Assembly: GCF_011694515.1 (NCBI RefSeq) | Contig: NZ_CP050192.1 | Location: 1,911,031-1,975,030, forward strand | From: Mycobacterium sp. DL592 | Lineage (GTDB): Bacteria > Actinomycetota > Actinomycetes > Mycobacteriales > Mycobacteriaceae | Direction: 5' to 3' | Length of the DNA: 64,000 bases | Part shown: positions 27,562-41,286 of the stretch, one piece after another | How the letters are laid out: every line of letters begins with the position of its first letter | How positions within the stretch are numbered: the stretch's first letter is position 1 | Notes under the pieces: model-generated | What the model saw: only the letters and a program-made list of their open reading frames with translations | The model's database searches: none | What the model was told of the DNA's origin: nothing | Made by a program: the position numbers and the translations under genes

Positions 27562-28470
27562 TCAGGGCCGCATGGCAGCGGGCAGGTCGCTCACCCACTG
27601 GTGGCCCCAGTAGCTGTCAGCGGTGATCTCCTCTGCGGTGTAACGACTTTCGTCGATACGCAGCCCGCCGGTGCCGAACTCGATGTCCCAGTCGCCGGGA
27701 GCGCGGACGTAGAACGACACCATCTTGTCGTTGGTGTGTCTGCCCAGTGTTGAGGACAGCTGGAAGCCCTCCTTGTTGACCCTGTCGAGCGCCGCACCGA
27801 CCGCGTCGAGGGTGTCCACCTCCACCATCATGTGGATCAGGCCGGGGTCACGCAACGTCGTTGCCGGGGCGATCGCCAGGCTGTGATGACGCTCGTTGAC
27901 TCCCAGGAAGCGGATCCGGATCGGCCCGAACTCCTTGGGTAGCGGCACCCGGAATGCGCCGCGGGACAGGAAACCCAATGTCTCGGTGTAGAACTCGAAC
28001 AGGGCGGGGGCATCCACCGCGGGCAGGACGACATGGCCGAGACCCTGGTCACCGGTGACGAACCGGGCGCCGAAGGGTGTCACGACCGGGCTGTGGTCAA
28101 GCACCGCGCCGTGGAACACCTCCAGGGTGTTGCCTGCCGGGTCGTCGAAGGTGATGACCTCCTCCACCCGGCGGTCGTCGGCCTCGGACTGCGAGAGTTG
28201 TTTGTAGGGCACACCCGCCGCGTCAAGGGTCTGCCTGACCTGCTCGAGCCCGATCCGGTCGCGAACTTCCCAGCCCGCGGCCACAATTCGGTCGCTGTCG
28301 CCGGGTGTGACGATGATCCGGGCGGCCCGCTCGTCCATCCGCAGGTACAGCGATTCCGGATCGGGTCCCTTACCTTCGGCGAAACCGAGCAACCTGAAGG
28401 CGAACTGGCGCCACCGCTCGATGTCGGCGGTCTGGATCGTGACGTAGCCGAGGCTGGAGAACAAACTCAT
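27562..28470 (-). CDS. HsaC/BphC-like extradiol ring-cleavage dioxygenase
   Basis: 302-residue two-domain type I extradiol dioxygenase of the VOC superfamily. The Fe(II) ligands are present: H146 (GHVVL), H213 (LIHMMVE) and E264 (WDIEFG), with catalytic H195/H196 (RHHSL). The N-terminus LGYVTIQTADIERWRQFAFRLLG and TLGRHTNDKMVSFYV match HsaC. HsaC cleaves the catechol 3,4-DHSA during steroid degradation; here substrate assignment rests on neighbours. It sits 12 nt downstream of the HsaA-like gene and 6 nt upstream of the KstD-like gene. Confidence 0.88.
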   Translation of the reverse strand: MSLFSSLGYVTIQTADIERWRQFAFRLLGFAEGKGPDPESLYLRMDERAARIIVTPGDSDRIVAAGWEVRDRIGLEQVRQTLDAAGVPYKQLSQSEADDRRVEEVITFDDPAGNTLEVFHGAVLDHSPVVTPFGARFVTGDQGLGHVVLPAVDAPALFEFYTETLGFLSRGAFRVPLPKEFGPIRIRFLGVNERHHSLAIAPATTLRDPGLIHMMVEVDTLDAVGAALDRVNKEGFQLSSTLGRHTNDKMVSFYVRAPGDWDIEFGTGGLRIDESRYTAEEITADSYWGHQWVSDLPAAMRP

Positions 28471-28482
28471 CTGCGGCGCCCG

Positions 28483-29664
28483 TCAGATCATCGCCCGCAG
28501 CGGACCCTCGGGTTCGACGCCGAAGGAGCTGAGAGCTGACGCATGGAAGACGGTGCCCGGCACGTGGATGGCGTGTGCCATACCGGTATGGGCGTCACGC
28601 CAGTACCGCTGCAGGGGCTTGTCCATGCGCATGCCGTTGCCGCCGGAGCGGGAGAAGATCTGGTCGACGGCCATCACCGCGCGCCACACCGCACGAACCT
28701 GGGTTCGACGGCCGGCGGCCCGGTCGGCGAACGAGACCTCCTTGCCGGAGTCGACCATGTCGTAGATGCGGTCGACGTTGGCCAGGATCTCCTGGCGGGC
28801 GGCGTTGATGTCGGCGGCGGCCTCACCGATCGCGTACATCACGTACGGGTCGTCCTTGATGGCCGTCCCGGCGGCGCTGACCCGCTCACGCTGGTAGTCG
28901 AGGTGGGCGGCCAGTGCGCCCTCGCAGATCCCGATGGTGGCCGAGGAGATGCCGAGGGGGAACATCGTCGACCAGGGCATCAGGTACAGGGTGTCGGTCA
29001 TGCCGGCTTCCCGCTGGGCGGTGCCGTCCATCACCTTGAACGCGTCCATGGTCCGGTATTCGGGGACGAAGGCATTGCGCACGATCACGTCCTTGGACCC
29101 GGTGCCGCGCAACCCGACGACATCCCACGAGTCCTCGACGATCTCGTAGTCCTTGCGGGGCAGGATCATGTGCAGCATCTGCGGTGGCATGACGGGTCTG
29201 CCCTCGGCATTGCCCAGCAGAGCACCGAGGAAGATCCAGTCGCAGTGGTCGGTGCCGGAGCTGAACTGCCAGCGGCCGTTGAAGATGTAGCCGCCGTCGA
29301 CGGGCACCGCCACACCCTGCGGTGCGTAGGGGGATGCCACCCAGGTGTCGACATCGTCGGCCCAGATCTCGGCGGCCACCCGCGGATCGGCATAGGCCAA
29401 CTGGTACGGGTGCACGCCCACGACACCGTTGATCCAGCCGGCAGCCGGGTCCAGTGCCGCGGTCGCCATCACCGTTTCGGCGAACTCGCGCGGGTGCACC
29501 TCGAGCCCGCCGTGCTCCTTGGGCTGCAGCAGGCGGATGTTGCCCGCCGACTTCATGATCTTCACTGTCTGCTCGGTCAGTTTGCCGATCTTCTCGGCCT
29601 CGACCGCGTGATCGCGCAACTGATCCGCGGCGTCCATGACTTTGTCGATAACCCGGGTTGTCAT
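28483..29664 (-). CDS. HsaA-like flavin-dependent monooxygenase
   Basis: 393 residues, acyl-CoA-dehydrogenase fold, group D monooxygenase. The start ATG 29664 has GAGGGA upstream. Segments WQFSSGTDHCDWIFLGALL, YEIVEDSWDVVGLRGTGSKDVIVRNAFVPEYR and QRYWRDAHTGMAHAIHVPGTVF are characteristic of HsaA/HpaB-like hydroxylases, and the length equals HsaA (about 394). HsaA hydroxylates 3-HSA to a catechol using FMNH2 from HsaB, then HsaC cleaves it, which fits the gene order. No HsaB reductase gene is in the window, so the reductase must be supplied elsewhere. Confidence 0.85.
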   Translation of the reverse strand: MTTRVIDKVMDAADQLRDHAVEAEKIGKLTEQTVKIMKSAGNIRLLQPKEHGGLEVHPREFAETVMATAALDPAAGWINGVVGVHPYQLAYADPRVAAEIWADDVDTWVASPYAPQGVAVPVDGGYIFNGRWQFSSGTDHCDWIFLGALLGNAEGRPVMPPQMLHMILPRKDYEIVEDSWDVVGLRGTGSKDVIVRNAFVPEYRTMDAFKVMDGTAQREAGMTDTLYLMPWSTMFPLGISSATIGICEGALAAHLDYQRERVSAAGTAIKDDPYVMYAIGEAAADINAARQEILANVDRIYDMVDSGKEVSFADRAAGRRTQVRAVWRAVMAVDQIFSRSGGNGMRMDKPLQRYWRDAHTGMAHAIHVPGTVFHASALSSFGVEPEGPLRAMI

Positions 29665-29775
29665 GCGTTTTCCCTCATTTGTCGGGCCTGGTTAGGCCAA
29701 TACTGAACCAGCGTGCCTGGCGGCGCGAGGAGTTGTCCCAATGAGCGGACCAGGCCCTTTTGGCCCTTTACAAGT

Positions 29776-29801
29776 CTGGTCTGATTTGTCAATGTGACCA
29801 G
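29776..29801. promoter_or_regulatory. Inverted repeats upstream of the BVMO gene
   Basis: A perfect CTGGTC...GACCAG pair (6 bp, 14-nt spacer, 29776-29781 and 29796-29801) encloses TTTGTCA-AT-GTGAC at 29785-29798, itself a GTCA-N3-TGAC palindrome. It abuts the BVMO ATG and lies in the divergent promoter region with the hsaA-like gene. A similar TTTGTCANNGTGAC occurs at 52145. Candidate operator of an unidentified repressor. Confidence 0.45.
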
Positions 29802-29802
29802 C

Positions 29803-31419
29803 ATGCAGAGAACCGGGCTGGCCGACCTCGACGCCGTCGTCGTCGGGGCCGGATTCGCGGGTTTGTACGCCCTGCACCGGCTGCGCTCGCAGGGTCTGGC
29901 CGTGCGGGTGTTCGAGGCGGCCCCCGGAGTGGGCGGCACCTGGTATTACAACCGCTACCCGGGCGCGCGCTGCGATGTTGAGAGCGTCGACTACAGCTAC
30001 TCGTTCTCCGAGGAACTGCAGCAGCAGTGGAACTGGACCGAGCGCTACGCCACGCAGCCCGAGATCCTCGAGTACCTCAACTGGGTCACCGACACACTCG
30101 ACCTGCGCCGCGACATCACCTTCGGCACGCGAGTGACGTCGGCGGTCCTCGACGAGGACACCCTGCGGTGGACGGTGAGCACCGACTCCGGTGAGGTGGT
30201 CAGCGCGCGGTTCGCCATCATGGCCACCGGCGCGCTGTCGGCGGCGATCACACCGGACTTCGCGGGGCTGGACAGCTTCTCCGGTGATGTGTTCCACACC
30301 GCGCACTGGCCGCACCAGGGCGTCGACTTAACCGGCAGGCGGGTCGCGGTCATCGGCACGGGATCCTCGGGCATCCAGTCGATTCCGCTGATCGCCGAAC
30401 AGGCCGCCCAGCTGTACGTCTTCCAGCGCACGCCCAACTACAGCGTCCCGGCCGGCAACCGGCCGCTGACCGCCGACGAGCTGGCCGAGGTCAAGGCGAA
30501 CTACGCCGAACGGCGGCGGATCTCGTTCCGCAGCGGCGGCGGCTCGCCCTATGTCGGCACCACGACGCCGACCCTGCAGGTGCCGCCGCAGGAGCGCCGG
30601 ATGGCCTTCGAAAGGCGTTGGCAGCTCGGCGGCGTGCTGTTCTCCAAGACGTTCCCCGACCAGATGACCGACCTCGCCGCCAACGACGAGGCCAGGAAGT
30701 TCTGGGAGGACAAGATCCGCGCGGTCATCGACGACCCCGCCGTCGCCGAACTGCTGATCCCCGACGACCATCCGATCGGGGCGAAGCGTATCTGCACCGA
30801 CTCGCAGTATTTCCAGACGTTCAACCGGCCCAACGTCGAGTTGGTCAGCGTGCGCCGGACCCCGATCGAGTCGATCGATGCCACCGGGATCTCCACCACC
30901 GCAGCCCATTACGACGTCGACGCGATCGTGTTCGCCACCGGCTTCGACGCACTGACCGGGTCACTGGGCAAGATCAGCATTATCGGCCGCGGGGGACGGG
31001 CGCTGTCCGAGGACTGGGCCCACGGCCCGCGGACCTATCTGGGGCTGGGCTGCGACGGGTTCCCGAACCTGTTCATGATCACCGGCCCGGGCAGCCCGGC
31101 AGTCCTGGCCAACATGGTGCTCGGAGCCGAGGCGCACGTCGACTGGATCGCCGAGGCAATCGGCTACCTCGACGAAAACGGCTACGCCGCATTAGAAGCC
31201 ACGCCCGACGCTGTGGAGCGCTGGTTGGCCGAGCTGTCGCAGCGCGTGGAGACCACGCTGTTCACCAAGGCCAACTCGTGGTACCTGGGCGCCAACGTGC
31301 CGGGCAAGCCGCGGGTGTTCATGCTGTTTTGCGGCGGGTTCGGCGTCTACAACGACATCTGCGCCGACGTGGCGGCAAGCGGCTACAAGGGGTTCGAACT
31401 CCTTGCGCCGCAAGGTTAG
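29803..31419 (+). CDS. Baeyer-Villiger monooxygenase (class B flavoprotein)
   Basis: 538 residues from ATG 29803; GTG 29794 is an alternative but falls inside a palindrome. FAD motif G15-A-G-F-A-G20, type I BVMO fingerprint F159-x-G-xxx-H165-xxx-W169-P, NADPH Rossmann motif G185-T-G-S-S-G190, and ATGF region (VFATGFDALTG). It converts ketones to esters or lactones with NADPH and O2. Beside KstD/Hsa-like genes a steroid or cyclic-ketone substrate is plausible (for example D-ring lactonisation); this is inference. The gene overlaps the hsaD-like gene tail-to-tail by 4 bp. Confidence 0.92.
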   Translation: MQRTGLADLDAVVVGAGFAGLYALHRLRSQGLAVRVFEAAPGVGGTWYYNRYPGARCDVESVDYSYSFSEELQQQWNWTERYATQPEILEYLNWVTDTLDLRRDITFGTRVTSAVLDEDTLRWTVSTDSGEVVSARFAIMATGALSAAITPDFAGLDSFSGDVFHTAHWPHQGVDLTGRRVAVIGTGSSGIQSIPLIAEQAAQLYVFQRTPNYSVPAGNRPLTADELAEVKANYAERRRISFRSGGGSPYVGTTTPTLQVPPQERRMAFERRWQLGGVLFSKTFPDQMTDLAANDEARKFWEDKIRAVIDDPAVAELLIPDDHPIGAKRICTDSQYFQTFNRPNVELVSVRRTPIESIDATGISTTAAHYDVDAIVFATGFDALTGSLGKISIIGRGGRALSEDWAHGPRTYLGLGCDGFPNLFMITGPGSPAVLANMVLGAEAHVDWIAEAIGYLDENGYAALEATPDAVERWLAELSQRVETTLFTKANSWYLGANVPGKPRVFMLFCGGFGVYNDICADVAASGYKGFELLAPQG

Positions 31420-32306
31420 CCGCGCTGAAGGAAGCTCAGTGCGGTCGCTTCGAAGGCCTGCTTCTGCTCGATCATCACCCAGTGCCCGCAGTTCGGGAAG
31501 ACATGCAGTTCGGCGTCGGGGATGGTGCGCATCGGGACCAGTGACATATCCAGCGGGCTGACCCGGTCATCACGCCCCCAGGTCAGCAGGGTGGGTGCCT
31601 TGACCTTATGCATGATCGCCCAGGGCAGCGGAAAATCAGCGTTTCGCATCATCTTCGTCATCGCCGCGAAGGCGGCCTTGCCGTACATCCGGCGCGCGCT
31701 GGCCAGCGTCTCGGGATCGGTGGCCAGCTCCCAGCGTTCGTTGATCAGCGTCTCGGTGACCAGGTCCTGGTTGTAGACCATCGAGTTGAGCCAGTCGACG
31801 AGGCGCTGGCGGGTGGGATCCTCGGTGAACTCCTGCAGCAGCCGGATTCCCTCACTGGGGCCTGGGCTGTAGATGTTGGTGCCGATCCCGCCGATGGTGA
31901 TGAGCTTGCCGATGCGGTCGGGGTGATTGATCGCGAAGTTGATACCGACGCCGCCGCCCATCGAGTTGCCGATCACGTCGACCCGGTCGAGTCCCAGCGC
32001 GTCGACGAACACCGGCACGGCGGCCTGGGCGTCGAGCATCGGGTGACCGCCGAAGTCGTCACTGACGCCGAAGCCCGGGAACTCCAGCACCAGGCACCGG
32101 AAGTGTTCGGCGAAGAACGCCAGGTTGCCGCGGTAGTTGCGCCAGCCGGTCACGCCGGGGCCCGATCCGTGCAGCAGAAGCAGCGTGGGGCCCTCGCCGG
32201 CCTCGTGATAGCGCAGAACGCCCTTGTCGGTGCTGATTTCCCGCAGCGTGCCTTCGTAACTGGTGTCCACGTCTGCTATCCGATCATTTGCGGTCGTGTT
32301 GCTCAA
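31416..32306 (-). CDS. HsaD-like meta-cleavage product hydrolase
   Basis: 296-residue alpha/beta hydrolase of the C-C bond hydrolase (BphD/HsaD) class. Catalytic triad: S115 in GNSMGG, D247 in GRDDRVSPLD, H275 in CGHWVMIEQ. The oxyanion-hole region LLLHGSGPG and the lid segment MVYNQDLVTETLINERW fit the family. HsaD hydrolyses 4,9-DSHA made by HsaC. With the HsaA- and HsaC-like genes this gives three consecutive steps of aromatic-ring opening, although it is separated from them by the BVMO gene. Confidence 0.9.
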   Translation of the reverse strand: MSNTTANDRIADVDTSYEGTLREISTDKGVLRYHEAGEGPTLLLLHGSGPGVTGWRNYRGNLAFFAEHFRCLVLEFPGFGVSDDFGGHPMLDAQAAVPVFVDALGLDRVDVIGNSMGGGVGINFAINHPDRIGKLITIGGIGTNIYSPGPSEGIRLLQEFTEDPTRQRLVDWLNSMVYNQDLVTETLINERWELATDPETLASARRMYGKAAFAAMTKMMRNADFPLPWAIMHKVKAPTLLTWGRDDRVSPLDMSLVPMRTIPDAELHVFPNCGHWVMIEQKQAFEATALSFLQRG

Positions 32307-32385
32307 CGGCGGGTTCCGGTCAGTGAGCGGGCGACAGAGTCGTCGTATCAGTCATCACATCAGCAACACTGGTCACATCGTGCGG

Positions 32386-32391
32386 TATCCT
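32386..32391 (+). promoter_or_regulatory. Possible -10 element for the cyclase-like gene
   Basis: TATCCT fits TAnnnT and lies 48 bases before the chosen ATG at 32440, giving a short 5' leader containing the GAAGGG ribosome site at 32428-32433. No clear -35 element. Confidence 0.35.
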
Positions 32392-32439
32392 GCTCGAGGA
32401 AGCGTGTCTGTGCGCGCCGTGCCGGGCGAAGGGATGCCT

Positions 32440-34665
32440 ATGACGCAAGTGTCTGATTCAGACGCTGCGGAGGCCGTCACCGAACCTACGGGGGAAGCCA
32501 AACCGGCAATGACCAGGCTGGACCGGATCCGGCGCCGCCGCCCGCTCAGCCACGTAAGTATCCAGTCGAAACTCATCCTGATGATGGTGCTGTGCACCAT
32601 ACTGGCGGCGACGGTCGTCGGCGGCATCGCGTTCCAAGCCGGCCGCACCTCGCTCCGCAATGCGGTGTTCGACCGGCTGACCGAATTACGCGAGTCCCAA
32701 ACCCGGTCGCTGCAGGAGCAGATCTCCGACCTGAAGAATTCCCTCATCATCTACACCCACGGTGTGGTCGCGCGCGACGCACTGGAGGCGTTCACCGCCG
32801 GGTTCAACCAATTGGCTAACGCCCAGATCAGCCCGGCGCAGTGGCAGAACATCGGTGACTACTACAACAACTCGTTCATCAAAGAGACCGAGAAGTACAG
32901 CGGCACGAAACTGGACGCCGCCGCGCTCCTACCCGCTTCCAATGCCCAGCGTTACTTGCAGGCCAACTACACGGCCACGCGTCCGCACAACCTTGACGAC
33001 GGCGACGATTACGCGATTGCCCTTGACGACGCCCACGACGGCAGCGCGTGGTCGGCGGCGAACGCTCATTTCCAGGACTTCTTCCGGCAGATCACGACAA
33101 GGTATGAATTTCAGGATGCCTTGCTGATCGATGCCAGCGGCAACGTCGTTTACACCGCCTACAAGGACGTCGACCTCGGCACCAACATCGTGGCCGGCCC
33201 CTTTGCCGGATCCAAACTCCAGGAGGCCTATCTCAAGGCGATGTCGTCCAACGCCGTCGACTATGTCGGATTCACTGACTTCGAGTTCTATCAACCGGCC
33301 GAAAACTCGCCGACCGCGTGGATGGTGGCACCGTTGCGCCGGGACGGCCGCGCGGAAGGTGTTCTCGCGCTGCAGTTCCCCATCACGAAGATCAACCGCC
33401 TGATGACCTTCGATAAGAAGTGGCAGGATGTTGGCCTCGGCCAGACGGGGGAGACGATCCTGGCGGGGCCAGACGAGCTCATGAGGTCGGACTCTCGGGT
33501 CTTCCTGGAGGACCCGCAGCGCTACAAACGTGATGTCGTCCAAGCAGGCACTCCGCCCGACGTCGCCGACATGGCCATCCGTCAGGGTGGGACGACGTTG
33601 GTGCAGCCGCTGTCCTCGCCCGCCACCAGGAACGCCCAGAGGGGAGAGTCTGGCACCCTGGTCGCCGCCGATTACCTCGGCCAGGACACTCTGCAGGCCT
33701 ATGCGCCGCTCGTGGTCAAGGACTCCGAGCTGCACTGGTCGATCGTCGCTAAGGTCGATACCGCCGAAGCCTTTGCCAAGGAAGCCACGTTTACCAAGAC
33801 CATGGTGGTGGTGACCGCGGGCATGATCTTCCTGGTCTGTCTGCTGGCGATCATGCTGGCCCAGATCTTCGTTCGCCCCATCAGGCGCCTCGAGGCCGGT
33901 GCGCTGCGAATCGGCTCGGGTGACTACGAAGTTGCAATCCCCGTCACCACGCGGGACGAAATTGGCGACCTCACAACAGCTTTCAATGAGATGGGTCGCA
34001 GTCTCACTGTCAAGGAAGATCTCATCAACCAACAGCGGCGCGAGGCCGACGCTCTGCTGAAGTCACTGATGCCAGAGACCATCGCCGAACGGTTCAAGCA
34101 GGGTGAAGAGAGTATCTCCGTTGAGCACAAGAACGTGACGGTGATCTTCGCTGACATCATCGGGCTGGATCGGCTTCAGGTCGAGCTGTCATCGCGGGAA
34201 TCGCTGACAAAGGTCAACGAGCTCATCCGGCAGATGGACGCTGCCGCCGACAGTTTGGGTATGGAGCGGGTGCACACCGTTCGCAACGGCTACCTCGCCA
34301 GCTGTGGTCTGACGGTGCCCCGGCTCGACAACGTCCGCAGGACCGTCGACTTCGCCCTGGAGTGTCAGCGAATCGTCGAGCGATTCAACGCAGAGACCGA
34401 CAACAACCTCAGCCTGCGGGCCGGCATCGACACCGGGTCGGTCAGCAGCGGTCTGTTCGGCCAGCCGTCGGTGGTCTACGACATGTGGGGCGCGGCGGTG
34501 AATCTCGCCCACCAGATCAAGAACGGCTCGCCGCAGCCGGGGATCTACGTCACCTCGCGGGTATACGACAACCTGCAGGAAACCATGCAGTTCACGTCCG
34601 CTGGAACGGTGACAGTCGACGGCGCGTCCGAACCCGTGTGGCAGTTGTCGGAGCGTGAGCGATGA
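32440..34665 (+). CDS. Cache-HAMP receptor with degenerate class III cyclase domain
   Basis: 741 residues from ATG 32440 (GAAGGG six bases upstream). Transmembrane helix ~45-65, a large extracytoplasmic double-Cache-like sensor (~70-450), second helix (VVVTAGMIFLVCLLAIMLAQI), HAMP, then a class III nucleotidyl cyclase domain. Metal Asp D572 (FADIIG) and D681 (YDMWG) remain, but the usual K-x-x-G-D reads H612-T-V-R615-N616, losing the adenine-contact Lys and the second metal Asp. The transition-state Arg after N688 is Q692. Catalysis is therefore doubtful. It overlaps the next gene by ATGA. The pair resembles my recollection of M. tuberculosis Rv2435c/Rv2434c. Confidence 0.88.
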   Translation: MTQVSDSDAAEAVTEPTGEAKPAMTRLDRIRRRRPLSHVSIQSKLILMMVLCTILAATVVGGIAFQAGRTSLRNAVFDRLTELRESQTRSLQEQISDLKNSLIIYTHGVVARDALEAFTAGFNQLANAQISPAQWQNIGDYYNNSFIKETEKYSGTKLDAAALLPASNAQRYLQANYTATRPHNLDDGDDYAIALDDAHDGSAWSAANAHFQDFFRQITTRYEFQDALLIDASGNVVYTAYKDVDLGTNIVAGPFAGSKLQEAYLKAMSSNAVDYVGFTDFEFYQPAENSPTAWMVAPLRRDGRAEGVLALQFPITKINRLMTFDKKWQDVGLGQTGETILAGPDELMRSDSRVFLEDPQRYKRDVVQAGTPPDVADMAIRQGGTTLVQPLSSPATRNAQRGESGTLVAADYLGQDTLQAYAPLVVKDSELHWSIVAKVDTAEAFAKEATFTKTMVVVTAGMIFLVCLLAIMLAQIFVRPIRRLEAGALRIGSGDYEVAIPVTTRDEIGDLTTAFNEMGRSLTVKEDLINQQRREADALLKSLMPETIAERFKQGEESISVEHKNVTVIFADIIGLDRLQVELSSRESLTKVNELIRQMDAAADSLGMERVHTVRNGYLASCGLTVPRLDNVRRTVDFALECQRIVERFNAETDNNLSLRAGIDTGSVSSGLFGQPSVVYDMWGAAVNLAHQIKNGSPQPGIYVTSRVYDNLQETMQFTSAGTVTVDGASEPVWQLSERER

Positions 34666-36077
34666 CGGACATCTTCAGGTCGACATGGTTCTACTGGGCG
34701 GTCGGGATCGCCTTCGGTCTCCCCCTGGGACTGGTGATTCTCACCGAGTGGCAGCATATCCTGCAGCGTAAGCAGAGCTTCCTTGTTCGCCCTGTGACCA
34801 TACTGCGGAATTATCTGTTGCCGCTGACCGCACTCTTGTTGCTGATGTTGGAAGCCAATCAGATTCCACCACAAGAAACTTCGGTGCGGGTGGTGGGCAC
34901 CCTGGTCGCGTTCGTGGTGCTCGTGCTCATGCTGTCGGGTATCAAGGCGGCGCTGTTCCAAAGCGCTCCTGACGGATCGTGGCGCAAGAGGATCCCGTCA
35001 ATTTTCCTCGATGTGCTGCGCTTCGTGCTGATCGCGGTGGGGTTGGCGATGATTTTCGCCTACATCTGGGGCGCAAACGTCAAGGGCTTGTTCACCGCAC
35101 TCGGCGTCACGTCGATCGTGGTCGGTCTGACTCTGCAGAACTCGGTAGGCCAGATCATCTCCGGCCTGCTGATGCTGTTCGAGCAGCCTTTTCGGCTGGG
35201 GGACTGGATCGAGACCGCACAGGCAAAAGGCAAAGTCATCGAGGTCAACTGGCGGGCAACTCATCTCGAGACGGGCACCGGACTTCAGATCACACCGAAC
35301 TCGATGCTGGCCGCAGCCTCATTCACCAACCTGAGCCGGCCGGCTGGCAAGCATTCGTTGGCTGTCACCACTGTGTTCGCGGTAGACGATCCCCCAGAGA
35401 AGGTGTGTGCCCTGCTCGCCCGGTTGGCCGCTGCACTACCGCAGTGCGACCCGGACCGCTCGCCGTCGGCGGTGCCCTCGGGTGCTATGGAGTATCGCAC
35501 CAAGATTCCGCTGAATTCGCCGGCAGAGGACGGTAGGGCCAAAGCCACCTTTCTGCGGTGGTTGTGGTACGCCTCGAGGCGTGAGGGATTGCATCTGGAT
35601 GAGGCACAGGATGAGTTCTCGACGGAGGACAGGATCACCGAGGCCATCTCCAGGGTGGTCGGGCCCACGTTCCGGCTAAGCGGCGACGAGCAGCGGGCTT
35701 TGATCGCGCACGCCAAGCTCGAACGCTACGCGGACGGCGAGCGGATCCAGCGGATCGGAGAGGTCCCCGACGGACTGACCTTCATCCTGTCGGGGGAAGT
35801 GCAGATGACCGCGCCTCTCGAGGATGGTTCTGAGACGGTTCTGTGGTCGCAGGGGGAGGGCTCCTTCCTTGGCCAGTCCGCGTTGACACGACAGGCGGTG
35901 CTCGGATCGGCTTATGCCGACGGCGAAGTCACCACAGTGCACGTTGGCCGTGACAAGATGGCCGACCTTGTGCACCAGAACCCCCAACTCCTGCAGGAGC
36001 TGGGGCAGACCATCGAGGAGCGCCGTGCCCACGTCCGGCGGGCGATGGAACAGACCGCCGACGCCGATATCGATTGA
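34662..36077 (+). CDS. MscS-type channel fused to a cyclic-nucleotide-binding-like domain
   Basis: 471 residues. Several N-terminal helices, then the MscS pore helix and beta domain (LGVTSIVVGLTLQNSVGQIISGLLMLFEQPFRLGDWI, residues ~145-190; THLETGTGLQITPNSML), and a C-terminal CRP/cNMP-type jelly roll (~345-455: ERYADGERIQRIGEVPDGLTFILSGEVQM). The phosphate-binding cassette reads G404-Q405-S-A-L with no clear Arg, where cAMP binders have G-E...R-x-A. This is bCNG/MscS-CNBD architecture. The start overlaps the receptor gene by ATGA, so the two are co-translated, and a receptor-gated channel is inferred. Confidence 0.88.
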   Translation: MTDIFRSTWFYWAVGIAFGLPLGLVILTEWQHILQRKQSFLVRPVTILRNYLLPLTALLLLMLEANQIPPQETSVRVVGTLVAFVVLVLMLSGIKAALFQSAPDGSWRKRIPSIFLDVLRFVLIAVGLAMIFAYIWGANVKGLFTALGVTSIVVGLTLQNSVGQIISGLLMLFEQPFRLGDWIETAQAKGKVIEVNWRATHLETGTGLQITPNSMLAAASFTNLSRPAGKHSLAVTTVFAVDDPPEKVCALLARLAAALPQCDPDRSPSAVPSGAMEYRTKIPLNSPAEDGRAKATFLRWLWYASRREGLHLDEAQDEFSTEDRITEAISRVVGPTFRLSGDEQRALIAHAKLERYADGERIQRIGEVPDGLTFILSGEVQMTAPLEDGSETVLWSQGEGSFLGQSALTRQAVLGSAYADGEVTTVHVGRDKMADLVHQNPQLLQELGQTIEERRAHVRRAMEQTADADID

Positions 36078-36085
36078 GCCGCATC

Positions 36086-37285
36086 ATGGCTCGCACCGCC
36101 TATGACCTCGTCGTGGTGGGCGCCGGCATTGTGGGGCTGGCCGTCGCGCGGGAATGGCTGGCGCGACGTCCGCAGGATTCGGTGGCGGTGCTTGAACGTG
36201 AAGCCGGGCCGGCACGCCACCAGAGCGGGCACAACTCGGGAGTCATCCACGGCGGCATCTACTATCAGCCCGGTTCGCTGAAAGCACGGCTGTGTGTCGA
36301 GGGCGCGCGACTGATGTATGAGTTCTGCGAGCAGCACGGCATCGCCCATGAGCGCTGCGGCAAGCTGATCGTGGCGGTCTCCGCCAGTGAACTGCCGCGA
36401 CTGGACGACCTGGAGGCCAGGGGCCGGGCCAATGCCGTGCCAGGCCTGCGCCGGGTCCGCGCGGCCGAGATCACCGAGATCGAGCCCAATGCCGTTGGTG
36501 TGCAAGCACTGCACGCGCCCAACACCGGCATCGTGGACTATCCGGCGGTTGCGCGGGCACTGGTGCAGGAGCTGACTGCGGCCGGTGCGACGATCCGGTT
36601 CGGCACCGACGTCCGCAGTATCGACGGTGCGAAGTCACCGGTGGTGCTCACCGGTCATGGTCCGGTGCGGGCCGGGACTGTGATCGCCTGCGCCGGATTG
36701 TGGTCCGACCGGTTGGCCCGGCGTGCGGGAGCTCCGCGCGACCCCCGGATCATCCCATTCCGCGGCGCCTATCTAGGACTCACGCCGACCGCACAGCCGC
36801 GTCTAAACGGCATGATCTATCCGGTGCCCAACCCCGAACTGCCGTTCCTGGGCGTGCACATCACCAAGCACATCGACGGTTCGGTGAGCCTAGGTCCGAC
36901 CGCCATGATGGTGGCGGCCCGCGACGGCTACTCGCTGCGCCGTTGGAACTGGCGCGACGCGTGGGAGTCGGCGAGCTGGCCGGGCACCTGGCATGTGGCG
37001 CATAGATATTGGCGGGTCGGGTTCGACGAGATCCGGATGGCGGCGAGCCGGCGCGCATTCGTACGCGCCGCGGAGCGCTACATGCCGGGTTTGTCGGTGG
37101 CCGACCTCGACGGGACCGCGCACGCCGGGGTGCGGGCCCAGGCCGTCGGCCGCGACGGCACCCTTGTCGACGACTTCGTGATCTCCCGCATCGGTGCGGT
37201 GTCCCATGTGCGCAACGCCCCCTCGCCGGCGGCCACCTCGGCGTTCGCGTTGGCGCGCGAACTCGTCGACCGGGTCACTGCCTGA
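36086..37285 (+). CDS. lhgO: L-2-hydroxyglutarate oxidase LhgO-like
   Basis: 399 residues from ATG 36086; a TTG at 36074 overlapping the previous stop is less likely. DAO-type FAD flavoprotein: VVVGAGIVGLAVAREWLARRP at the N-terminus, the LhgO hallmark HQSGHNSGVIHGGIYYQPGS, CGKLIVA, TGIVDYPAVARAL, PFRGAYLGL and SLGPTAMM, ending GVRAQAVGRDGTLVDDFVI. It oxidises the metabolic by-product L-2-hydroxyglutarate to 2-oxoglutarate, passing electrons to quinone. It follows the channel gene by 8 nt, probably as a passenger in the operon. Confidence 0.92.
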   Translation: MARTAYDLVVVGAGIVGLAVAREWLARRPQDSVAVLEREAGPARHQSGHNSGVIHGGIYYQPGSLKARLCVEGARLMYEFCEQHGIAHERCGKLIVAVSASELPRLDDLEARGRANAVPGLRRVRAAEITEIEPNAVGVQALHAPNTGIVDYPAVARALVQELTAAGATIRFGTDVRSIDGAKSPVVLTGHGPVRAGTVIACAGLWSDRLARRAGAPRDPRIIPFRGAYLGLTPTAQPRLNGMIYPVPNPELPFLGVHITKHIDGSVSLGPTAMMVAARDGYSLRRWNWRDAWESASWPGTWHVAHRYWRVGFDEIRMAASRRAFVRAAERYMPGLSVADLDGTAHAGVRAQAVGRDGTLVDDFVISRIGAVSHVRNAPSPAATSAFALARELVDRVTA

Positions 37286-37370
37286 CGGTCAGTACTGCCG
37301 GTTCGGCCCGCAGCAGCTTGAGCATGGTGAGGTAATTGCCCCAGTCGAAGTAGAACCGTGCTGCGGTCAT
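37275..37370 (-). CDS. Possible 31-residue protein
   Basis: An ATG-initiated frame of 31 codons (MTAARFYFDWGNYLTMLKLL...) with high third-position GC fills the gap between lhgO and the palindrome at 37394. An in-frame TAG four codons upstream excludes a longer protein. There is no Shine-Dalgarno. An aromatic/Leu amphipathic core is visible, and no family is recognised. It overlaps the lhgO 3' end by 11 bp. Confidence 0.35.
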   Translation of the reverse strand: MTAARFYFDWGNYLTMLKLLRAEPAVLTVRQ

Positions 37371-37393
37371 CGCCGAAGGCTAAGTCGATAAAA

Positions 37394-37406
37394 TTGACAA
37401 TGTCAA
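37394..37406. promoter_or_regulatory. Palindromic operator TTGACA-A-TGTCAA
   Basis: A perfect 6-bp inverted repeat around one base, 22 bases upstream of the LLM gene start. TTGACA also fits a -35 box, with TAAGGT at 37415-37420 (15-nt spacer) as -10, which ends eight bases before the ATG at 37429. A repressor bound here would block RNA polymerase. Confidence 0.5.
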
Positions 37407-37428
37407 GCAAATGTTAAGGTGGGGCGCG

Positions 37429-38451
37429 ATGAAGGTTTACGCGGGAATGGATCCCCGGCTGCCGCTGCGCGACGTCGCCGGGTATGCACGCCGTGTCGAA
37501 CAGCTGGGATTCGACGGCCTGCACATCGCCGAGACCATTCACGACTCGCTGGCGGTGGCACTACTCGCCCTCGAACACACCGCCGCCATCACGGTTCGCA
37601 CGTCGATCACCCTGGCCTTCGTGCGCAGCCCCACCCTGGTGGCCTACACCGCATGGGATCTGGCGGTCATGTCGGGCGGCCGTTTCGAACTCGGGCTGGG
37701 CAGCCAGATCAAGCAGAACGTCCGCGACCGCTACGGCATGCCGTGGAGCGAACCGCGATCCCGGATGCGCGACTATCTCGGCGCGCTGGAGGCCCTCTTT
37801 ACGGCGTTTCGCACCGGCGGGCGGCTGGACTTCCAGGGGCAGTGCTACCAATTGACCCGTCTGCAGCCCTATTTCAACCCCGGCCCCGACGACGCCGTCG
37901 CCCCGCCACCGATCTGGCTGGGTGCGGTGAACGCCGGAATGTGTGAGCTGGCCGGCGAACTGGCCCTCGGCGTGGTCACCCACTCCACCAACTCCGACCC
38001 GGGCTACCTGCGCGACGTCGTCCGGCCGGCCCTCGACCGGGGCGCGGCGACGGCGAAACGCGCTGCCGCACCAGCGATCATCGCGTCCTGCGCGATGGCT
38101 ACCGGCGCCGGCGACGCGGCCGTAGCCCGCGCCCGGGAGCGGCAACGCGGCCTGCTCGCCTTCCTGTACTCCACACCGGCCTACGCGCCCGCGCTCGAAC
38201 GCCTCGGCCTGACCGATCTCGCCGGCCGGTTGCGCGCGGTGGTCAAGGACCAGCGCTGGTCCGAGCTGCCCGCCGTGCTCACCGACGCGGTGCTCGACAC
38301 CCTGCTGGTGTCGGGGCGCTACGACGAGCTGCCGGCGATCCTGCGGGCGCGCTACGGCGAGCTGGCCGACGGTGTCCAACTGCCCCAGATCGCCGATCCC
38401 GGCGACGACGAAGCCCTGCGCGCGTGCATCGCCGCCCTGCAGGCCCGCTGA
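37429..38451 (+). CDS. LLM-class (F420-dependent type) oxidoreductase
   Basis: 340 residues from ATG 37429 (MKVYAGMDPRLPLRDV); the ATG at 37411 lies on the putative -10 box and is less likely. Luciferase-like TIM barrel: GYARRVEQLGFDGLHIAE, SITLAFVRSPTLVAYTAWDLAVMSGGRFELGLGSQIK, ALFTAF, PPPIWLGAVN. In mycobacteria most such proteins use F420 rather than FMN. The SQIKQNVRDRYGMPW segment is shared with a TIGR03617-type subgroup. Substrate unknown. It ends convergently 4 bp from the marR gene. Confidence 0.85.
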   Translation: MKVYAGMDPRLPLRDVAGYARRVEQLGFDGLHIAETIHDSLAVALLALEHTAAITVRTSITLAFVRSPTLVAYTAWDLAVMSGGRFELGLGSQIKQNVRDRYGMPWSEPRSRMRDYLGALEALFTAFRTGGRLDFQGQCYQLTRLQPYFNPGPDDAVAPPPIWLGAVNAGMCELAGELALGVVTHSTNSDPGYLRDVVRPALDRGAATAKRAAAPAIIASCAMATGAGDAAVARARERQRGLLAFLYSTPAYAPALERLGLTDLAGRLRAVVKDQRWSELPAVLTDAVLDTLLVSGRYDELPAILRARYGELADGVQLPQIADPGDDEALRACIAALQAR

Positions 38452-38455
38452 GGGG

Positions 38456-38923
38456 TCAGTCGTCGATCGGAGTGCCCACCGAGTCGTCGAAGAACCGGGT
38501 CAGCAGCCGGTCGAACTCGTCGAGTTCGGCACGCGTCCAGCCCGACAGGGCACGCTGCAGATGACGGCGCCGGACCTCCTGCAGGGAACCGGCGACTCGC
38601 CGTCCGGTCCTGGTGACAGCGATGAGCGTCACCCTCGCGTCGGCCGGATCCGGCTCCCGCGTAGCCAGTTTCGCATCGACGAGGATGCTGACCTGCCTGG
38701 TCGCCATGCCGACGTCCATGTGTGCGGCGCGGGCCAGCGCACCCATCGACTGCGGGCCCCCGTCGATCAGGACGCGTAGCAGAACGTAGGACGGCTGGGT
38801 CAGGACGACGCCGGCGGCCGCGGCCTGCCGGGCGAACATCGACCGGCTGCCGCTGAGTCGCATCACCTGGGCCAGCGTGTGGCTGATCGAGTCGAGCGAC
38901 TCGTCCTTCGGTGAAGAACTCAC
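38456..38923 (-). CDS. MarR family transcriptional regulator
   Basis: 155 residues from GTG 38923 (VSSSPKDESLDS), chosen because upstream residues are low-complexity Arg-rich. Winged-helix core: LTQPSYVLLRVLIDGGPQSMGALARAAHMDVGMATRQVSILVDAKLATREPDPADARVTLIAVT, with the wing motif DPADAR conserved. It is divergent from the EamA transporter gene (45-bp gap), the classic arrangement for local control of an exporter. Confidence 0.88.
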   Translation of the reverse strand: MSSSPKDESLDSISHTLAQVMRLSGSRSMFARQAAAAGVVLTQPSYVLLRVLIDGGPQSMGALARAAHMDVGMATRQVSILVDAKLATREPDPADARVTLIAVTRTGRRVAGSLQEVRRRHLQRALSGWTRAELDEFDRLLTRFFDDSVGTPIDD

Positions 38924-38968
38924 TGAGCGTCCGTTCCGGCGTGGGGTGCCTGAGTGTCCTCTGCAATC

Positions 38969-39847
38969 ATGCCAACCATGCCCGCTCACTCTGCGAGGAC
39001 CGGTGCGGCCCTCGCGGTCGGAGCAATGGTGTGCGTCCAGCTCGGCCTGGCGGTCGCCGTCGGCCTGATTGGCCGGATCGGCACCGACGGTGCGGTCTGG
39101 CTGCGGCTGACGTGGGCCGGACTGCTGTTCCTGGTGCTGGTGCGCCCCCGCCCGTCGGCGTTCACCAGGACCACCTTCGCGACGTGCGTGGTGCTGGGCG
39201 CCGTGACGGCGCTGACCACGCTGCTGTTCATGGCCGCACTCGCGCGGATTCCGCTGGCGACCGCCAGCGCGCTGGAGTTCCTCGGACCGCTCGGTGTCGC
39301 GGTGGTCAGCGGCCGGGGCCGGGGGCGGCTCGTCTGGCCCGCGCTGGCCGGCGCCGGTGTCCTACTGCTCACCGAGCCGTGGCGCGGCACCGTCGACGTG
39401 ACCGGCGTGTGGCTCGCCCTGGGTGCGGCGCTGTGCTGGGCGGCCTACATCCTGCTCACCCAGCGCGTCGGCGACGGCGTCGACGGGCTGGCCGGCCTCG
39501 GTGTCTCGATGCCGGTCGCGGCGCTGGTCGCCACCGCGGCGGTCGGCCACGCCGTGATCCCCAGAATGACGCCGGGGTTGATCCTCGTCGGGTTCGGGCT
39601 GGCACTGCTGCTGCCGATGACGCCGTTCGTGCTGGAGCTACTGGCGTTGCGTCGCCTGAACGCCGCCGCATTCGGCACACTCATGAGCCTGGAGCCGGCG
39701 CTGGCGCTGCTGATCGGATTCCTTGTGCTGCAACAGGTTCCGACGGCGCTGGCGATCGTCGGTATCGGCTTCGTGGTGGCCGCCGGGATCGGGGCGGCCC
39801 GTGGTGGCACCAGGGCGCAGCCCGGCCCGGAGACGGCGGCGCGCTAG
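38969..39847 (+). CDS. EamA/DMT family transporter
   Basis: About 292 residues with ten predicted transmembrane helices and two EamA repeats (VWLRLTWAGLLFLVLVRPRP... and WLALGAALCWAAYILLTQRVG...). FGTLMSLEPALALLIGFLVL near the end is characteristic of RhtA-like members, which export amino acids or related small molecules. Start uncertain among GTG 38954, ATG 38969 and ATG 38978. It overlaps the MFS gene tail-to-tail by 4 bp. Probably regulated by the divergent MarR protein. Confidence 0.85.
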   Translation: MPTMPAHSARTGAALAVGAMVCVQLGLAVAVGLIGRIGTDGAVWLRLTWAGLLFLVLVRPRPSAFTRTTFATCVVLGAVTALTTLLFMAALARIPLATASALEFLGPLGVAVVSGRGRGRLVWPALAGAGVLLLTEPWRGTVDVTGVWLALGAALCWAAYILLTQRVGDGVDGLAGLGVSMPVAALVATAAVGHAVIPRMTPGLILVGFGLALLLPMTPFVLELLALRRLNAAAFGTLMSLEPALALLIGFLVLQQVPTALAIVGIGFVVAAGIGAARGGTRAQPGPETAAR

Positions 39848-41286
39848 CCCCACTCATGGTTCATCGCTCGCGAATCGGTGATGTCGTCCAGCGATTCCAG
39901 GCGCCGTAGCCGCGGCCGCGTGGTGGCGACGAGTACGAGCGCGCCGAGCGCGGTGACCGCGCCCAGCACGAAGATGGCGATGAAGCTGCTCTCGGCGGGA
40001 TAGCCGTCATGTGAGCGGCTCAGCAACACCGCGACGATCGCGGCGGCCACCGAACTGCCGATGGTCCGCGCGATCGCGTTCATGCTCGTCGCGACACCGG
40101 TCTCGCCGGCGTCCACCTCCTGGACGACGAGGGCGGGCAGCGCCCCGTACGCCAGGCTGATGTAGGCGTTGGCCAGCACGGTGGCGGCGATGACCTGCCA
40201 CGGCAGGTCGTGCAGGACGGCCAACAGGGTGAAGCCGATCACGCCGGCCACCGCGCCGACCACCAGCACGATGCGGGCCCCGTAGCGGTCGATGTAGCGG
40301 CCGCTGAGCACCGCGGTGACGAAGCCGGCAATCGCGCCCGGAAGCAGGAACACCACGCTGGCACCCAGGACCGAGGCGCCGAACCCGTATCCGCTGGCCA
40401 CCGGGGACTGAACGAAGTCGGTCAGGCCGAGGAAGCTCAGATACAGGCCCATCCCCACCAACACGGTGGCGATGTTGGTCAACAGGATCGGACGCCGGGA
40501 CAACATCGCGGTGGACACCAGGGGCTGCGCACAGTGGCGTTCCCACCACCACCACGCGCCGAGGGCCGTCAGGCCCGCGACGGCGCAGCCGATCGTGCGC
40601 CCAGACGCCCACCCCCAACCCGGGCCCTGGGTGATCGCCAGCAATACGGCGGACAGCCCGACGCCCAGCCCGAGCGCTCCTGCCCAGTCGATCGTGCCCG
40701 AGGCCGTGCGCGGCCGGGACGGCACGACGAGCAGCACCATGACGATCACCATCGCGGTGAACGCGGTGGTGAGCCAGAACACCCGGTGATAGCCGGCGTC
40801 GCCGCGCATCAGCAGACCGGTCACCACGAGCCCCATGCCGCCGCCGAAGCCGAGTGTCCCGGACAGCACCGCCATCGCCCGCATCAGCCGCTCCGGTGGC
40901 AGTTCGTCGCGCAGGATCGACACGCTGATCGGGTACAGCGAGTACGAGGCGCCCTGGAGGACTCGCGCGATGATCAGCAGCGGAAGGGACGCCGTCAGCG
41001 CGGCCAGCAGCGATCCGGCGAGCACGACGGCCAGCACGACCAGCAGGACCCGCCGCTTGCTGTAGAGGTCGGCCAGCCGGCCGATCAGTGGGGTGGTGGC
41101 CGCGGCGGCCAGCAGGTTGGCGGTGACGGCCCAGCTGACGTGAACCGTGGAGGCGTTGAGCTGGCGGGCGATCACACCCAGGATCGGCACCACCCCGGTC
41201 TGCAGGACCGCGACGGTCAACGCAACCACACTCAGCGTCGCCACAAGGACCGCCGGCCGAGGGTGACCGGAGCCCAGATCAGACAC
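39844..41286 (-). CDS. MFS drug transporter, DHA2-type (14 TM)
   Basis: 480 residues, 14 predicted helices. Motif A is visible as GRLADLYSKRRVLL after helix 2, and motif C-like segment GTLGFGGGMGLVVTG in helix 5. An internal motif A copy SGRYIDRYGARIVLVVG follows helix 9. The family exports drugs or metabolites by proton antiport. Start ATG 41286. It sits head-to-head with the thioesterase gene, 94 bp apart. No dedicated regulator other than the MarR protein nearby. Confidence 0.88.
   Translation of the reverse strand: MSDLGSGHPRPAVLVATLSVVALTVAVLQTGVVPILGVIARQLNASTVHVSWAVTANLLAAAATTPLIGRLADLYSKRRVLLVVLAVVLAGSLLAALTASLPLLIIARVLQGASYSLYPISVSILRDELPPERLMRAMAVLSGTLGFGGGMGLVVTGLLMRGDAGYHRVFWLTTAFTAMVIVMVLLVVPSRPRTASGTIDWAGALGLGVGLSAVLLAITQGPGWGWASGRTIGCAVAGLTALGAWWWWERHCAQPLVSTAMLSRRPILLTNIATVLVGMGLYLSFLGLTDFVQSPVASGYGFGASVLGASVVFLLPGAIAGFVTAVLSGRYIDRYGARIVLVVGAVAGVIGFTLLAVLHDLPWQVIAATVLANAYISLAYGALPALVVQEVDAGETGVATSMNAIARTIGSSVAAAIVAVLLSRSHDGYPAESSFIAIFVLGAVTALGALVLVATTRPRLRRLESLDDITDSRAMNHEWG

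Follow-up and report, generated by a model that had tools for sequence, protein, structure and literature searches.

A mycobacterial receptor–channel gene pair with conserved loss of canonical residues in its cyclase homology and CRP-like domains, a candidate for cAMP-independent signalling

The stretch of DNA analysed here, in the following called the window, comprises 64,000 nucleotides of Mycobacterium sp. DL592 (assembly GCF_011694515.1, contig NZ_CP050192.1, positions 1,911,031–1,975,030, forward strand) and contains two adjacent genes, one for a receptor with a class III cyclase homology domain (CHD) and one for an MscS-type channel with a cyclic-nucleotide-binding-like (CRP-like) domain (CNBD). 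The conserved pairing of these genes, together with the loss of canonical residues on both sides, suggests that a signal from outside opens the channel without cyclic AMP (cAMP). Our preferred reading, to which we assign a probability of roughly 0.55, is that the pair constitutes one signalling unit, namely a receptor-gated, cAMP-independent channel in which both proteins are coupled by contact between CHD and CNBD. Its observed base consists of the gene pairing, the conserved residue loss, purifying selection, a common origin of the CHDs and the occurrence in genomes where no further cyclase of class III or class I is recognised.

The CHD of the window lacks the canonical catalytic set: the adenine-contact Lys is replaced by H612, the second metal Asp by N616 and the transition-state Arg by Q692 and, in addition, the Gly preceding the second Asp by R615. 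An order-wide scan detected the receptor in 31 of 298 genomes, and in the 30 loci kept for alignment, our own included, the adenine Lys is exchanged for Arg or His throughout (30/30), the second metal Asp for Asn in 29 and for Ser in one, and the transition-state Arg for Gln in 27. The larger receptor set consists of 156 readable rows (133 from Mycobacterium, 20 from Microbacteriaceae and three from outside the class), which come from overlapping searches and are not independent; one Mycobacterium row and three rows of second receptors had no letters at the scored columns and were left out. Not one of the 156 rows contains the full canonical set. Lys, Gly and second Asp are all absent from the 133 Mycobacterium rows, the Arg is lost in 122 and kept in 11 of them, and the first Asp is replaced by Glu, Gly or His in 28; Lys and Gly are likewise missing from all 20 Microbacteriaceae rows. 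In the three distant receptors, Lys and Gly are present and first Asp, Asn and Arg are all missing; two of them retain the second Asp. Among the 120 closest receptor proteins in a large database, Lys, Gly and second Asp are never present.

As a control, 30 other class III domains were read in seven of the same genomes, eight of these domains belonging to the genome of the window; both metal Asp residues and the Gly are present in 30/30 and the Arg in 29/30. Loci were obtained for 30 of the 53 matches of the genome search for class III domains, and L193 and L208 (truncated), L198 (partial weak match), L194 (second receptor of a three-gene locus) and L230 (partial) were left out of the control. 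The adenine Lys is absent in several control domains, including two of the eight others of the window's genome, and its loss alone therefore says little. Taken together, the changes exceed chance, since they recur across the family while the 30 control domains keep both metal Asp residues and the Gly. From its residues, canonical binding of two metals and ATP is not expected of the CHD, which probably lacks enzyme activity.

On the channel side, the phosphate-binding cassette of the window reads G404-Q405-S-A-L-T-R410-Q-A-V-L-G415-S-A, with Gln in place of the Glu and no Arg at the canonical position. The readable channel set comprises 157 rows (134 from Mycobacterium, 20 from Microbacteriaceae and three distant ones), none of which contains the cassette Glu, this position being mostly occupied by Leu, Gln, Val or Ile, or an Arg at the aligned canonical column. 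Neither the Glu nor the whole-cassette pattern, which requires it, was found in any of 240 database channel proteins. R410, part of an LTR motif, is present in 134/134 Mycobacterium, 19/20 Microbacteriaceae and 1/3 distant rows as well as in 240/240 database proteins. An Arg stands elsewhere in the later cassette in 21 Mycobacterium rows, mostly at position 418 or 412 and once (L031) at 416, two of these rows being truncated or out of frame; in the Microbacteriaceae part of the database set, the commonest letters at column 415 cover 117/120 and an Arg precedes this column by one residue in 3/120. The CNBD is thus predicted not to bind cAMP. A preliminary description of the window had already pointed to H612, N616 and Q692 as well as to a cassette with G-Q and no clear Arg, all of which align as it proposed, only R615 having escaped it. 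Its view that both sides of a cAMP circuit lack canonical residues, while folds and pairing are kept, now extends to 156 receptors and 157 channels, among which orthologues with the canonical residues were looked for and none was found.

In the close pairs tested, omega (dN/dS) is 0.04–0.14 for the CHD and 0.12–0.20 for the CNBD, so neither domain is decaying in these pairs. Decay as the cause of the residue loss was rejected, as both domains are under purifying selection in these close pairs and N616, Q692 and R410 are themselves conserved. In a tree of 48 rows, the 19 sampled CHDs of this module are found on one side of a branch (97/88), beside a canonical group of the Rv1625c type; after removal of the active-site columns this branch stays (97/91), with a weaker kinship to the Rv1625c-type group (76/87). 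The module CHDs, of which both trees contain a sample (without L002, L194, L230 and L231, and in the column-stripped tree also without L205), share a common origin in the tree.

The receptor is located directly upstream in 174 of 176 channel hits, and at 30 junctions inspected by eye a start coincides in most cases with the receptor stop or lies some bases away from it. Both genes were present in 22 and neither in four of the 26 Mycobacterium genomes covered by both the receptor and the channel scan. Within the genus, a receptor match occurs in 30/35 genomes of the order-wide scan, our own included, and the channel in 162/198 genomes of the genus scan. The pair can be found in Mycobacterium, Microbacteriaceae and three other families, one of the same order as Microbacteriaceae (L274) and two outside the class (L275, L276). 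In the latter two, the channel gene stands between two receptor genes; both receptors are degenerate, and the CHD of the second looks more degenerate still. This arrangement looks as if two receptors made a heterodimer beside the channel. One family, taken as Microbacteriaceae from protein titles (Plantibacter, Microbacterium, Leifsonia), has the pair in 19 of 150 genomes. The pair is frequent in few lineages and not general, since the channel was detected in 30/394 genomes and 3/137 genera by a class-wide profile scan and in 16/396 genomes by a phylum-wide one. The suggestion of an old, conserved mycobacterial module thus stands as to age and conservation, whereas the restriction to mycobacteria does not. 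Two close channel relatives titled Occultella and Planococcus (P0299, P0354) represent either further hosts or mislabelled records.

Whole pairs are duplicated in tandem in the slow growers M. simulans, M. szulgai, M. innocens, M. attenuatum and M. angelicum (L117, L118, L120, L127, L129), the copies being 63–69% identical, and M. persicum has two pairs on one contig (L122 and L133). In addition, the receptor tree and the channel tree divide into the same two clades.

In 18 of the 20 Microbacteriaceae genomes with the pair, one of the 20 being only 77% complete, its CHD is the only match to PF00211 (E up to 0.001), and the other two have one or two extra matches. A class I cyclase was found in none of the 20, with a positive E. 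coli control (classes II, IV, V and VI were not searched). Of eight such genomes, six have no real CNBD besides that of the channel, two extra weak hits being cupin-like by eye, and the remaining two contain one extra CNBD each (L232, L240), in a CRP/FNR-type regulator and in a thioredoxin-reductase-like fusion. By eye, both of these retain the Glu, and their Arg, next to a Pro, lies near the usual position without occupying it; they may bind cAMP. The pair has been retained in genomes that, apart from it, show little or no recognised cAMP machinery, and the sole class III domain argues against cAMP supplied from elsewhere. It is perhaps interesting in itself that in several of these genomes the pair accounts for all cyclase matches and that other domains of the cAMP-binding type are few or absent.

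In the signalling unit that we favour, an extracellular ligand would bind to the Cache-type region and thereby move the HAMP and transducer helices of the receptor dimer; the CHD, no longer making cAMP, would touch the CRP-like domain of the channel directly and so hand on this movement, and this contact would gate the MscS-family channel without any cyclic nucleotide. In its specific form, with a metabotropic-like bacterial receptor gating an MscS-family channel by contact via a pseudo-cyclase and a pseudo-CNBD, the cAMP circuit having been replaced by a "wire", we hold the proposal tentatively, at somewhat less than even odds. That many Microbacteriaceae kept this "wire" while having no further recognised cyclase of class III or class I belongs to the same contact reading and is conceivable, falling just short of an even chance.

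Several observations weigh against a cAMP-independent unit coupled by contact. D572, D681 and N688 are retained in the CHD of the window, Microbacteriaceae receptors keep the second metal Asp in 2/20 and the transition-state Arg in 17/20 cases, the Arg is kept in 30 of the 120 closest database receptors, and the L274 receptor keeps, by eye, both metal Asp residues, although it is without Lys, Gly and Asn. In the channels, the column next after the canonical one is occupied by an Arg in 4/20 Microbacteriaceae and 2/3 distant rows; the cassette part of the distant channels aligns poorly, and a shifted alignment could count the displaced Arg as canonical. R410 could bind some other ligand, and the sole class III domain of the Microbacteriaceae genomes could equally be the genome's working, odd cyclase. 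In a metagenome bin (L152), a receptor has no channel found beside it. Finally, we infer the physical contact of CHD and CNBD, the direction of gating and the ligand, and the inferred contact counts on this side as well.

The near invariance of R410 and its place inside the cassette would also suit a CNBD which responds to some other small molecule, be it a nucleoside, another nucleotide or a metabolite, in a remodelled cassette, the CHD sensing this ligand, scaffolding or setting its level. Structures of trypanosomatid protein kinase A (PKA), 6flo and 6h4g, are among the fold matches of the channel, and this kinase keeps the usual ribose Glu. According to PMC10959531, the regulatory subunits of this cAMP-independent PKA have lost the cassette Arg and cAMP binding, have kept fold and role, and bind purine nucleosides, the ribose of which is held by an added Glu. 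In the channels of the module, however, the usual ribose Glu is lost, so that the same mode is unlikely, and the two genes of the pair, the only ones considered in this respect, show no enzyme for such a ligand. On balance, we consider another ligand unlikely.

A divergent but working cyclase, which would provide the channel with a local cyclic nucleotide, appears improbable. Class III enzymes with a changed adenine Lys can be active (Rv1900c, Rv0386), and the pair fits the logic of cyclase and cNMP-channel given by the annotation; the three retained residues, the two other Lys-less cyclase domains of the window's genome and the 18 Microbacteriaceae genomes without another class III match speak for such an enzyme too. 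Against it stand the replacement of the second Asp in 133/133 Mycobacterium and 18/20 Microbacteriaceae rows, the loss of the Gly in all of these, the lost Arg and the changed first Asp in 122 and 28 of the 133 Mycobacterium rows, respectively, and the receiving pocket of the channel, which is degraded too.

That the genes of an osmotic valve gated by tension and of a receptor with some unrelated output are merely co-transcribed is quite improbable. Within the channel, conservation is highest in the MscS pore and beta domain (mean entropy 0.80) and plain tension gating is possible, gating with tension being reported for Ss-bCNGa, but adjacency across several families, pair-wise duplication and congruent trees exceed the needs of a shared promoter. 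Membership in Pycsar, the anti-phage system in which a pyrimidine cyclase gene (PycC) likewise stands beside that of a CNBD membrane effector, was rejected and is hardly worth considering, since the matches of PADLOC PycC models to the CHD (E 8e-7) and of TIR-effector models to the CNBD (E 0.001–0.04) are generic and presumably to be expected of any class III domain or CNBD, whereas here an inactive-looking cyclase lacking active-site residues is part of a receptor with an extracellular sensor and occurs in 162/198 genomes of the genus.

Among known systems, the bCNG channels, reportedly those of Caldwell in 2010 and Malcolm in 2012, have the same architecture, as indicated by Pfam and fold matches for an MscS pore and a C-terminal CNBD fold; in contrast to these, the present family is without the Glu and Arg of their cAMP-binding cassette and has a constant receptor partner. 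The CHD resembles that of class IIIa cyclases (Rv1625c, mammalian adenylate and guanylate cyclases) in fold, and these are its nearest canonical relatives in the tree, but its catalytic set is incomplete. Database names label the channel as CRP-like and cAMP-binding.

The pair had also been likened to Rv2435c/Rv2434c. By description, the likeness lies in a double Cache region, which has been reported for Rv2435c (PMC4822843) and is putative in the receptor of the window; published Rv2435c primer sequences gave no match in 297 genomes. In published work, Rv2435c is treated or listed as an adenylate cyclase, Rv2434c is described as possibly involved in cAMP signalling, a 2004 survey (PMC2447327) names the two genes with 10 and 3 mentions, respectively, and one study (PMC9066635) found antibodies to Rv2435c useful in distinguishing active from latent tuberculosis. 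A non-enzymatic reading of the pair as pseudo-cyclase and pseudo-CNBD was not found among the listed open-licence papers (in two cases 30 of 1,320 and 25 of 29 matches), as judged from titles and the beginnings of abstracts. If these pairs work without cAMP, one entry in the censuses of mycobacterial cyclases may be wrongly classified, and a ligand-gated channel composed of a receptor and a separate pore protein would exist in bacteria. The Microbacteriaceae without other recognised cyclases offer a clean background for a direct test of cAMP independence.

Table 1. Features of the receptor–channel pair and their positions in the window
Feature	Position	Strand	Remarks
Receptor gene, 741 aa	32440..34665	+	transmembrane helix, extracellular Cache-type region, transmembrane helix, HAMP, transducer helix, CHD
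First membrane helix of receptor, residues ~41–68	32560..32643	+	helix 41–107 in model; limits taken from sequence
Extracellular double-Cache-like sensor region, residues ~69–445	32644..33774	+	dCache_1 below cut-off; predicted mostly well
HAMP domain, residues 473–522	33856..34005	+	Pfam
Cyclase transducer element, residues 523–561	34006..34122	+	well conserved, mean entropy 1.12
Degenerate class III CHD, residues 562–735	34123..34644	+	Pfam, alignments, fold match
D572, first metal Asp, kept	34153..34155	+	Glu in 26/133 Mycobacterium rows
H612 replacing adenine-contact Lys	34273..34275	+	alignment
R615-N616 replacing Gly-Asp turn (second metal Asp)	34282..34287	+	alignment, control domains
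D681, adenine Asp, kept	34480..34482	+	alignment
N688, transition-state Asn, kept	34501..34503	+	Ser in 63/133 Mycobacterium rows
Q692 replacing transition-state Arg	34513..34515	+	alignment
ATGA overlap of receptor stop (34663–34665) with channel start (34662)	34662..34665	+	reading of open reading frames
Channel gene, 471 aa	34662..36077	+	four N-terminal helices, MscS pore helix, beta domain, alpha/beta region, CRP-like domain
MscS-type pore helix region, residues 140–173	35079..35180	+	Pfam, fold
CNBD-like domain of channel, residues 341–455	35682..36026	+	Pfam, fold
Former phosphate-binding cassette, residues 404–419, without Glu and canonical Arg	35871..35918	+	alignments
R410 of LTR motif, channel	35889..35891	+	nearly invariant in family

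The ATGA overlap of the two genes, as first described, is borne out by their stop and start. In the receptor, Guanylate_cyc (562–729, E 1e-31, 110 bits) and HAMP (473–522, 4e-15) are clear Pfam matches and the CHD has the class III cyclase fold, with a fold match to Rv1625c, while the double Cache region of the preliminary description is seen only via dCache_1 (201–352), which has an E of 1e-7 and 31.9 bits, below the curated cut-off of 45. The MscS-pore channel with its CRP-like domain was correctly recognised: MS_channel_2nd (2e-19), MS_channel_1st (2e-5) and cNMP_binding (7e-12) match in Pfam, PF00924 and PF21088 lie above cut-off, and the folds match those of MscS, YnaI and MscK, as in the MscS superfamily. 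The CHD loops 613–621, 624–627 and 671–680 have a pLDDT (predicted local confidence) below 50 in the AlphaFold monomer model. Repeated weak WD40 matches of the CNBD fragment were disregarded.

For the neighbourhood, 80 named loci were used, which were kept out of up to 353 receptor relatives reported. Many slow growers have the pair beside ribokinase-, proA- and MoxR-like genes (clusters in 52–54 of the 80 loci, named by eye). These neighbours presumably correspond to the order Rv2436...Rv2427c, which the window's own neighbours do not fit. None of the nine neighbours of the window pair (window 27562–41286) recurs beside the pair in the 80 named loci, which means that either the pair was relocated or its locus was rearranged. 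Upstream, a cluster of genes that look by eye like those for ring cleavage, acyl-CoA dehydrogenase, flavin monooxygenase and hydrolase functions can be seen. On the other side, within about 10 bases of the channel gene and on the same strand, follows a gene for an FAD oxidoreductase, LhgO-like by eye (window 36074–37285), which could be co-transcribed with the pair.

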